This document shows, piece by piece, positions 5,766-11,872 of a stretch of DNA of 64,000 bases. The stretch is from NCBI GenBank assembly GCA_021776615.1, contig JAJFFO010000008.1:1-64000 (forward strand). Direction: 5' to 3'. Source of the DNA: Robiginitomaculum sp. Lineage in GTDB: Bacteria > Pseudomonadota > Alphaproteobacteria > Caulobacterales > Maricaulaceae. The notes under the pieces were generated by a model. That model did no database searches, was not told the DNA's origin, and saw only the letters and a program-made list of their open reading frames with translations. A program made the position numbers and the translations under genes. How positions within the stretch are numbered: position 1 is the first letter of the stretch; every line of letters starts with the position of its first letter.

Positions 5766-6650
5766 ATGCGCGAATCCAGTATCAAAAAACAGGATATACA
5801 AATATCTACGCCAGACGGGGTTTCGCTGGCGGCGACGCTGTTTTTGCCGCTGCCGTCAGCACCGGCACCAAAGGCGGCGGTGTTGATATCGTCCGGCACC
5901 GGCTTTCCCAAAGCGTTTTACCAGCTCTTTGCTGCTTATGGCGCGTCGCGCGGCTTTGCCTGCATGACTTATGATTATCGTGGTATTGGAGGTTCCGCCC
6001 CCGCCGACATGCGCGGCTGCCAAGCCGATATCATTGATTGGGGTACTCGGGATGCGCCTGCCGCCTTGGCATTTTTGGCGCAGCGTTTTGATGGCGTGCC
6101 AATATTCACCCTTGGCCATAGCGTTGGCGGGCAGATTATCGGGCTGATGGATAATCATGATTTGGCCTCTGCACACGCATTTGTGGCGGTTGGCAATGGC
6201 TATATGCCGTATCATTGGCCGCGCTACTGGCCGCTGGAACTTTTGTTTTTCTATATTTTGGGGCCGTTATCGCTTTTGCACCATGGCTATATTAAAGGCC
6301 CCGATTATTGGCCGGGTGCCAGCATGCCGCGCAAAGTGTTTTTGCAATGGCGGCGTTGGTGTCAGCGCAAAACCTATTATCAGCGCGATGTGGACGAAAA
6401 ACTGGGCGGCGGGAATTTTGCCATGGGCGGCGTGCCGATACGCCAATTTGGCTTTGCCGACGACCCAGTGATCAATAGCCGCTCGGTCAAATTGATGGAA
6501 CAGCTATATGATTCTGCCAATTACGACACCAAATGGATCCGCCCGGCCGATATCGGGGTGAAGGCAATTGGCCATAGCGGCGCATTTTCAACCAAGGCCA
6601 AAGGATTTTGGCCGATGCCGTTTGACTGGTTCGAGACGCTGATACCATGA
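5766..6650 (+). CDS. Alpha/beta hydrolase family protein
   Basis: 294 residues. The nucleophile elbow is GHSVGG (Ser119), the strand before it is VPIFTL, and the N-terminal AAVLISSGTGFPKAFY looks like an oxyanion-hole region. The central WPRYWPLELLFFYILGPLSLLHHGYIKGPDYWPG is rich in aromatics and resembles the cap of uncharacterised COG4757-like hydrolases. Near the end, GHSGAF supplies a candidate catalytic His. No signal peptide. The ribosome site is GAAGCGGAGG. It is divergent from the SDR gene. Substrate not recognised. Confidence 0.8.
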   Translation: MRESSIKKQDIQISTPDGVSLAATLFLPLPSAPAPKAAVLISSGTGFPKAFYQLFAAYGASRGFACMTYDYRGIGGSAPADMRGCQADIIDWGTRDAPAALAFLAQRFDGVPIFTLGHSVGGQIIGLMDNHDLASAHAFVAVGNGYMPYHWPRYWPLELLFFYILGPLSLLHHGYIKGPDYWPGASMPRKVFLQWRRWCQRKTYYQRDVDEKLGGGNFAMGGVPIRQFGFADDPVINSRSVKLMEQLYDSANYDTKWIRPADIGVKAIGHSGAFSTKAKGFWPMPFDWFETLIP

Positions 6651-6685
6651 GCGATAAAATTTGATGAACGATTGCCGCCTCTCTT

Positions 6686-6860
6686 GTTCATGAACCGTTC
6701 AGCGAGGGAATCATAGTTTCGTTCTTGAGATTGTTGCCCGTCATAACGTCCCTCGCGCGGGTTTTGATCTCACGGTTGTAACTAACCCAGCCTAGCACCG
6801 GTTTCCGCAAGGAGACCGGTGCTTCTGGTTGGGCGTTATGTTGGCCAAAGCAACCCGCCA
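6686..6860 (+). ncRNA. Candidate structured RNA (unknown family)
   Basis: The gap between the hydrolase and acetoacetyl-CoA synthetase (6651-6960) has no convincing ORF but dense pairing. A long hairpin has CCCAGCC (6786-6792) with GGTTGGG (6827-6833), then AGCACCGGT (6794-6802) with ACCGGTGCT (6815-6823), extended by TTCC/GGAG around a GCAA tetraloop. A second hairpin pairs GAGAT (6727-6731) with ATCTC (6767-6771) and CCCG with CGGG inside. Its loop holds TCCCTCGC (6749-6756), complementary to GCGAGGGA at 6702-6709, and CATAACG (6742-6748), complementary to CGTTATG at 6834-6840. These mutually exclusive or pseudoknot pairings look functional. I could not match it to a known riboswitch, 6S, SRP or tmRNA. 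The strand is inferred from the G-T pairs on the plus sense. Confidence 0.45.
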
Positions 6861-6960
6861 AACCTAGCTAAAACTGTGTACACCAAGGTCATGCGATTGC
6901 TTGGCCCTTGCCCGGCTTAATCTCAATGGTAATGTTACCCAACACTGCCAATGAGGAAGA

Positions 6961-8919
6961 ATGGCCATGCGCGTCCTGTGGACCCCCGATGATCAACAAA
7001 AAGCGACGTGCAATATGGGCAAATTTGCGCAATCTGTGGCGCAAATAGACCCGGCCGCGCCCGACGCTTACGCCCAGCTTCACGCCTGGTCTGTTGAGGA
7101 CCCGGCACGGTTTTGGCGGGCGATGTGGGACGAATGCGGTCTGAAGGGCGATCCGGGCGATATTATTCTTGAGAATAGCGAGCAAATGCCCGGCGCACAG
7201 TTTTTCCCCGATGGACGGTTAAATGCGGCGGAAAACCTGATTGAACGCGGCGACCGGCTGGACCAGGCCATTGTGTTTTGGACCGAAGACGGCCGCGAAG
7301 AAAGCTGGACCCGCAAAAAGTTAAAGGAAAAGGCCGGGCGCTTTGCCGCCACTTTTACCGCGCTTGGTATTGAGGAAGGCGACCGCATTGCGGCGATTAT
7401 GCCAAATATGCCGATGACCATTGCTGCGTTTTTAGGCGCAGCATGGATTGGCGCGGTGTTTTCTTCCGCGTCACCGGACTTTGGTGTTGGCGGCGTCACC
7501 GATAGATTTGGCCAAATTGAGCCAAAAATCCTCATTGCCTGCGACGCTTATCGCTATAATGGCAAAATATTCGACGTCTCGGGCAAGCTGACCGCCATTG
7601 CTGATAATATTCCCTCGATTGAACATATATTGGTGGTGCCATACCAAAAAACCGACCCGGATTTGAGTGTTGATGAGCGCTTTATCAGCCTTGAAAAATT
7701 CATGAAAATCGGGGCAGGGGGCGGCATCCCTTATAAGGGATTTGCGTTTAATCACCCACTTTACATCCTGTTTTCATCGGGCACCACCGGCCAGCCGAAA
7801 TGCATTGTGCATAGCGCCGGCGGCGCACTTTTGCAGCAATTTAAAGAACACAAACTGCATTGTGATAATGGCGTAAATTCGCGTGTGTTTTTCTTCTCGA
7901 CCTGCGGCTGGATGATGTGGAATTGGCTGGTGGCCGGGCTGGGCGTTGGTTCGACCATCCTGCTTTATGATGGTTCACCCTTTGCCATGGACGGGCGCAT
8001 ATTATTTCGCATTGCTGACCGCGAAAAGGCGGATTATTTTGGTATATCCGCTAAATGGATTGATGCCGTGCATAAGTCCGGCCAGCACCCGGCGGTGGAA
8101 AATAATTTGTCATCGGTGTGCATGATTGGCTCTACCGGGTCGCCATTATCGCCCGAAGGGTTTTCCTTCATTGCCGACAAAATATCGCCCACAGCGCAGA
8201 TTGCCTCCATGTCCGGTGGCACCGATATTGTTTCCTGCTTCGTGTTGGGTAATCCGCTGCAAAGCGTTGTTGAGGGTGAAATTCAGGGGCCCGGCCTTGG
8301 CATGGCGGTGGAAGTTTGGGACGAAGACGCCAAGCCGGTGATTGGGCAGAAGGGCGAATTGGTGTGTGTCAAACCGTTTCCGTGCATGCCATTGGGGTTT
8401 TGGAATGATGGCGATAATTCGCGCTATAAAGCCGCGTACTTTGAAGACTTTCCCGGCATTTGGCGCCATGGCGATTGGGCGGAGATTACCGAACATGGCG
8501 GGGTGCTTATCCATGGTCGCTCTGACGCAACGCTTAATCCGGGCGGCGTGCGTATTGGTACCGCCGAGATTTACAATCAGGTCGAACAAATCCCCGCCAT
8601 TCTCGATAGCGTTTGCGTCGGGCAGGATTGGGATGATGATGTAAGGGTGATTTTGTTCGTGGTCTTGCGTGAAGATGCAGCGTTGGACGCAGCCTTGATC
8701 AAGGAAATCAAAGGAAAGATCCGAAAAGGCGCTAGCCCGCGCCATGTGCCCGCCAAAATCATCGCGGTCGCCGATGTACCGCGCACCAAATCTGGCAAAA
8801 TAACCGAATTGGCAGTGCGAGATGTGGTGCATAACCGCGCGGTGAAAAATCAACACGCCTTGGCAAATCCCGAGGCGCTAGCATATTTCAAAAACCTGCC
8901 GGACCTGCAAAGCGCTTGA
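6961..8919 (+). CDS. Acetoacetate--CoA ligase
   Basis: 652 residues, the usual size of acetoacetyl-CoA synthetase (EC 6.2.1.16), which activates acetoacetate with ATP and CoA so that ketone bodies can be used or polyhydroxybutyrate carbon recycled. The ANL-superfamily P-loop is SSGTTGQPKCIVHSAGG from about residue 272, the adenylate motif is in SMSGGTDIVSCF, the hinge is HGRSDATLNPGGVRIG, and the catalytic Lys is in KSGKITE near the C-terminus. The segment KEHKLHCD after the P-loop is typical of this subfamily. The start is ATG 6961 or ATG 6967; GAGGA lies at a better distance for 6967. A structured intergenic stretch precedes it. Confidence 0.93.
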   Translation: MAMRVLWTPDDQQKATCNMGKFAQSVAQIDPAAPDAYAQLHAWSVEDPARFWRAMWDECGLKGDPGDIILENSEQMPGAQFFPDGRLNAAENLIERGDRLDQAIVFWTEDGREESWTRKKLKEKAGRFAATFTALGIEEGDRIAAIMPNMPMTIAAFLGAAWIGAVFSSASPDFGVGGVTDRFGQIEPKILIACDAYRYNGKIFDVSGKLTAIADNIPSIEHILVVPYQKTDPDLSVDERFISLEKFMKIGAGGGIPYKGFAFNHPLYILFSSGTTGQPKCIVHSAGGALLQQFKEHKLHCDNGVNSRVFFFSTCGWMMWNWLVAGLGVGSTILLYDGSPFAMDGRILFRIADREKADYFGISAKWIDAVHKSGQHPAVENNLSSVCMIGSTGSPLSPEGFSFIADKISPTAQIASMSGGTDIVSCFVLGNPLQSVVEGEIQGPGLGMAVEVWDEDAKPVIGQKGELVCVKPFPCMPLGFWNDGDNSRYKAAYFEDFPGIWRHGDWAEITEHGGVLIHGRSDATLNPGGVRIGTAEIYNQVEQIPAILDSVCVGQDWDDDVRVILFVVLREDAALDAALIKEIKGKIRKGASPRHVPAKIIAVADVPRTKSGKITELAVRDVVHNRAVKNQHALANPEALAYFKNLPDLQSA

Positions 8920-9833: not shown

Positions 9834-9892
9834 GCGCGTATTTGCGTTATATTGACTTTCGCTCCGAGGGGCGCCCCTGATTCCTATATGCT

Positions 9893-11872
<1,980 letters not shown>

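Follow-up and report, generated by a model that had tools for sequence, protein, structure and literature searches.

A candidate LexA-controlled small RNA family with a near-invariant loop in Caulobacterales

Caulobacter is a leading model for cell-cycle arrest after DNA damage, and our literature search, largely of open-access papers, found no report of a LexA-controlled small RNA (sRNA) in Caulobacterales. The accessible portions of PMC6120978, PMC3073932, PMC11005374, and PMC5988900 describe no such RNA. In the available text of PMC6237742, nine annotated sRNAs of Caulobacter crescentus are induced by mitomycin, and none is given an SOS box near its start. According to the accessible part of PMC2527527, 113 loci with LexA boxes have been predicted across bacteria and are listed in a supplementary table; a homologue of the RNA described here may already be among these computational predictions.

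Four described sRNAs resemble this RNA in part. GsrN, the general-stress sRNA of Caulobacteraceae (PMC5869019, accessible part), is likewise small and structured, comes from the same order, and exposes a conserved 5′ loop that contains C. That text gives GsrN a sigma-T promoter (GGAAC-N15-17-CGTT) and six tandem C residues in its loop, whereas here the sigma-T motif occurs neither in 181 homologous upstream stretches nor in the window (the whole 64,000-nucleotide stretch of Robiginitomaculum sp. DNA that was analyzed), and a six-C run within 12 nt of the loop seed is found in none of the 181. ChvR of C. crescentus is a small three-hairpin RNA with a link to DNA damage and a stem-loop that pairs with mRNA; as far as the available text of PMC6237742 goes, it depends on ChvI-ChvG, lacks an SOS box, and was detected only in C. 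crescentus. In contrast, the RNA described here has a box and occurs order-wide, and the two are set apart by description and by the ChvI motif (TTGC-N3-GCAA in the accessible part of PMC9731502), which is missing from all 181 upstream stretches and from the window. IstR2 of E. coli, from another bacterial class, is a LexA-repressed sRNA (PMC2527527, accessible part) and is likened to our RNA by description, not by sequence. EcpR1, an alphaproteobacterial stress sRNA of Rhizobiales, also has a strongly conserved first-hairpin loop, but the available text of PMC4414408 gives that loop as UCCGCCGCAUCU, under stringent-response control, and its order is a different one. The locus reported here probably holds the gene of a LexA-repressed, trans-acting SOS sRNA that pairs through its loop, as judged from comparative sequence analysis.

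The RNA lies within positions 6651-6960 of the window, between an alpha/beta hydrolase ORF (5766-6650, plus strand; Pfam Hydrolase_4) and an AMP-binding ORF (6961-8919, plus strand; Pfam AMP-binding and ACAS_N). A preliminary description of this DNA had named the downstream gene acetoacetyl-CoA synthetase; its domains agree with an enzyme of the acetyl/acetoacetyl-CoA synthetase type, and the exact name is that description's own. The pairings that it had listed are all in place: a 13-bp stem (6794-6806/6811-6823) capped by GCAA, GAGAT at 6727-6731 with ATCTC at 6767-6771, CATAACG at 6742-6748 complementary to CGTTATG at 6834-6840, and TCCCTCGC at 6749-6756 complementary to GCGAGGGA at 6702-6709. 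The 175 nt folded at −73.6 kcal/mol versus −50.6 kcal/mol (SD, 4.1) for 200 shuffles, better than all of them (z, −5.64). Self-complementary 7-mer matches in the region numbered 20 versus 3.3 expected, a count reached in 0 of 300 shuffles, and 8-mer matches numbered 10 versus 1.3 expected, reached in 4 of 300. Thus, the pairing content of the stretch exceeds chance. No Rfam 15 family reached its gathering threshold in the region, in agreement with the earlier failure to match it to a known family; in the whole window, only TPP and tRNA were found, both elsewhere, and a search of 6600-7000 at E values up to 5 gave two chance-like eukaryotic matches on the other strand.

An alignment of 12 sequences (A2) was used to build model R1, and a further alignment (A3) comprises one homologue from each of the 37 genomes that R1 matched. 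In A3, 97.2% of the cells of two hairpins are paired, with two-sided changes in 14 of 20 pairs, G-U pairs included; the covariation score was 0.485, as compared with 0.266 for shuffled and at most 0.160 for slid controls, and none of five covariation measures was reached by any of 500 shuffles. Stem-loop 1 (6727-6771, plus strand; arms 6727-6741 and 6757-6771) shows two-sided changes in 8 of its 10 modelled pairs, with 95.6% of the cells paired, while the terminator-like hairpin (6794-6823, plus strand; 13 bp, GCAA loop) shows them in 6 of 10, with 98.6% paired. The structure of two hairpins is real, and it is near certain that they belong to a new conserved RNA family. The predicted sRNA of ~108 nt (6727-6834, plus strand, both ends being predictions) starts 8 nt after the predicted −10 element and folds with a z of −6.15 into the covarying structure, leaving the loop at 6742-6756 unpaired. 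Of 40 sampled homologues, 34 have this hairpin with at least four T residues among the 8 nt that follow it, and the T-run is weak in the window species. A short coding RNA was considered and set aside: counting ATG starts only, 143 of 181 predicted transcripts have no complete ORF of at least 10 aa, and 38 have one. The compact noncoding RNA that the preliminary description had put forward as one of two readings is supported by this covariation among relatives and by the distribution given below.

Its other reading, a switch working through competing and crossing pairings, is not supported. The 6702-6709/6749-6756 helix is paired in 53.7% of the cells and shows no two-sided change; the 6702-6709 segment does pair with the loop in the minimum-energy fold of the whole stretch alone, but not in the structure that the relatives support. 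Since GCGAGGGA (plus strand) lies upstream of the predicted −10 element, it is probably outside the RNA, and we judge it to be promoter DNA. The other partner, 6834-6840, falls at the predicted 3′ end or beyond it, and by eye none of the remaining 12 sequences in the genus alignment shows it. The conserved, mutually exclusive pairings that define an RNA switch are thus not seen here.

In a BLASTN search with the stretch, matches were obtained in 13 of 61 genomes, namely its own and 12 of the 17 others of the genus, and in none of the 43 outside the genus. Model R1 extended the range to 37 of 137 genomes of the family (all 18 listed members of the genus, 5 in g7, 13 in g9, and 1 in g15), and model R2 gave matches in 100 of 398 genomes of the order at E ≤ 0.01. 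Among 40 order matches of R2 that were fetched, 30 have [AG]TTCN7[AG]TTC together with GTCCCTCG, 3 have the seed only, and 7 have neither; L136, L137, and L149 have the seed with an incomplete box. The seven with neither (L138, L139, L147, and L156-L159; E values of 4.7e-4 or worse) were taken as chance, as were model matches outside the order that lack the seed (L114-L119; E values of 3.4e-4 to 8.2e-3). A model-independent signature combining box, spacing, and loop (TTCA-N6-GTTCA-N36-52-GTCCCTCG) was found in 107 of the 398 order genomes, and its reversed pattern in none of them. These 107 genomes fall into three families (39 in f1, 31 in f3, and 37 in f4); f2 and f5 contribute none. The signature under-counts, leaving out two model-found members of the genus with ATTC as the second half-site; R2 in turn under-detects in genus g28, since the signature is present in 18 of 21 sampled genomes there and R2, even with its threshold relaxed to E ≤ 0.1, matched 29 of 75. 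In a class-wide sample of 385 genomes, the signature occurred in 2 (the window's own and one other) and the control in 1.

A scan of named genomes yielded at least 118 stretches. Among the matches listed, most are labelled Caulobacter, Phenylobacterium, Maricaulis, other Caulobacterales, or unclassified, and a few carry other labels, such as Marinobacter and Streptomyces. Robiginitomaculum is also among the named carriers in these matches, and named strains with the RNA include Maricaulis maris DSM 4734 and Caulobacter zeae 410. In L136 and L137 (family f2, genus g38), the RNA is seemingly present with a loop containing TGTCCCTCGATGG, and the first half-site of the box is degraded, perhaps reflecting a loss of control. 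In one relative, the RNA occurs twice, once in full (C254) and once in a shortened form (L013; G011:C185, 3396-3492, minus strand) whose middle is lost, which allows pairing between the 3′ arm of stem-loop 1 and the terminator arm. At L012:1720-1898, the contig end consists of near-identical tandem units of ~60 bp, which may be an assembly artefact.

The preliminary description predicted no promoter, and the region opens with a LexA/SOS-type box, GTTCATGAACCGTTC (6686-6700, plus strand), the sole exact GTTCN7GTTC in the window. The same motif is the published SOS box of C. crescentus (PMC6237742, available text). The form [AG]TTCN7[AG]TTC occupies the box position in all 37 relatives, and the first half-site serves as an independent check because both R1 and R2 start at the second. 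The box is perfect in 24 of the 37 and imperfect in 13, the latter counting against an SOS reading. Five GTTCN7GTTC sites of the window genome stand 34 to 222 nt ahead of ORFs that match, over their first 60 residues, LexA, RecA, UvrA, RadA, and DNA polymerase III alpha, and the site before the UvrA-matching ORF has SSB on its other side. The number of sites alone proves nothing, since the genome has 34 of them versus 74 for the reversed pattern, and the motif is not enriched. The RNA thus has the conserved promoter box of a LexA-controlled sRNA, in a motif tied to SOS genes, and LexA control is likely on these sequence grounds. As its gene carries an SOS switch, the RNA is probably made upon DNA damage. 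The predicted −10 element, TAGTTT (6714-6719, plus strand), begins at an offset of 12 nt from the box, where.A...T is found in 115 of 181 distinct signature sequences; none of the other offsets between 4 and 23 has it in more than 33, and the strict TA...T is present there in 40 of the 181. This pattern suggests a −10 element at 6714-6719 and a start near 6727. No recognizable −35 element was found at the promoter, which counts against it.

Several other genera have a third GTTCA, 11 to 13 bp further upstream than the box (L032-L042 and L074-L080, by eye), an arrangement like that of response-regulator arrays. Together with the C. crescentus mitomycin-induced sRNAs, near which the available text of PMC6237742 reports no SOS box, it would fit a real trans-acting sRNA whose GTTCA repeats serve a different regulator, such as one of the OmpR type, in a non-SOS stress. 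We regard this as unlikely, given that GTTCN7GTTC precedes lexA, recA, uvrA/ssb, and radA in the window genome, and that neither the ChvI nor the sigma-T motif is found among the homologous upstream stretches.

The loop of stem-loop 1 is CAUAACGUCCCUCGC (6742-6756, plus strand), with the core GUCCCUCGC at 6748-6756. The nine letters of this core, GTCCCTCGC, are unchanged in all 37 sequences of A3, where mean column identity is 61%. Three families of the order share the whole set of features: the box, the −10-like element 12 nt downstream of it, the 5′ stem-loop whose GUCCCUCG loop is near-invariant, and the terminator-like hairpin. Promoter signature, open invariant loop, and terminator-like hairpin, the predicted features of a trans-acting sRNA, all lie on one strand. 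In the SOS sRNA model that we prefer, LexA bound to the box would block transcription until, upon DNA damage, RecA triggered LexA cleavage and an RNA of ~110 nt, starting at the base of stem-loop 1, were made regardless of the adjacent genes. The open loop would then pair in trans with CGAGGGAC-like stretches of mRNA, probably near ribosome-binding sites, and would lower mRNA translation or stability. Regulation through such loop pairing is plausible.

Six genomes were searched for complements of the seed ahead of ATG, three with GAGGGAC-N1-9-ATG and the other three with CGAGGGAC-N1-9-ATG; 58 sites were found versus 26 for the reversed patterns, an excess that may come from a Shine-Dalgarno-like word before ATG. 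In this small exact-word search of six genomes, no shared target was found among the 24 ORFs of at least 50 aa that were compared, which derive from 52 of the 58 sites. Likewise, the seed complement had no recurring position in the flanks of the 118 named loci among the matches listed. The loop-complement 10-mer GCGAGGGACG had 13 matches in five genomes of the genus, 5 of them being the RNA itself; the 8 outside the RNA are no commoner than the 8 of the reversed control in these five genomes, which counts against mRNA pairing. In three of these 8 matches, near position 1500 in L398, L396, and L404, GCGAGGGACG stands 31 to 46 nt before ORFs with an exported-looking start. These three ORFs are each different (reprolysin-like, GH53-like, and without a Pfam match) and are a lead only; two of the three places have TTTTTGCGAGGGACG in common.

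The invariance of the loop core across genera and the lack of a conserved mRNA target in these searches would also be expected if the RNA acted by binding a protein at the loop rather than by pairing with mRNA. On the other hand, the target search was small, confined to exact words in six and five genomes, and pairing of a C-rich loop with G-rich mRNA sites is the mode described for GsrN in Caulobacter (PMC5869019, accessible part). Protein binding therefore seems to us a rather improbable mode of action.

Nine marker proteins were mapped on 189 loci, some genomes being represented more than once. The map suggests an ancestral order of CoA-transferase family III, RNA, BrkB/YihY, CoA-transferase A, and CoA-transferase B on one strand. 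In the window clade, the order is hydrolase, RNA, and AMP-binding ORF, and in Maricaulis a pentapeptide-repeat gene lies upstream of the RNA. The downstream gene varies among a BrkB/YihY family member, a CoA-transferase, and the AMP-binding ORF, and Maricaulis has none of these within 1.5 kb. Because the RNA outlasts changes on both flanks, we argue that it is an independent gene. The same map bears on whether the RNA could act in cis on the downstream gene, as its leader or attenuator. The two are mostly on the same strand, the gene begins shortly past the terminator-like hairpin, and it often acts on acetoacetate (CoA-transferase A/B or the AMP-binding ORF). A leader is nevertheless very doubtful: its gene would differ between clades, with none of the three kinds within 1.5 kb in Maricaulis, the competing pairing is not conserved, and the RNA has a promoter signature of its own. 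For the same reasons of clade-dependent neighbours and unconserved pairing, an acetoacetate-gene attenuator or riboswitch is not favoured. That there is no RNA gene at all, only a conserved DNA element or chance structure, is hardly credible, since the good fold of the opposite strand (z, −4.49) is outweighed by G-U-inclusive covariation, an open invariant loop, a promoter signature, and a terminator-like hairpin on one strand. An integron attC-like site, an idea raised by the GGGCGTTATG end, was discarded: that end is confined to the window species, and the genome has a single copy of this DNA. A phage origin was also rejected, with no match to a stricter signature among viral contigs.

Returning to an SOS-controlled sRNA, we lean, by a small measure, toward the view that Caulobacterales have an old LexA-controlled RNA near one ancestral locus, which would use one near-invariant loop to give the SOS response a posttranscriptional layer. 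If true, this would be the first characterized SOS-box sRNA family of Alphaproteobacteria, and an RNA that went unreported in the main model organism's DNA-damage transcriptome. The presence of the conserved, boxed RNA in named strains makes this possible new layer directly testable, and both the models and the signature are ready for use in annotating the RNA.

The TPP riboswitch in the window (RF00059, 64.1 bits; 9857-9977, plus strand) lies just upstream of a 629-aa ORF (9983-11872), which by eye resembles thiC.
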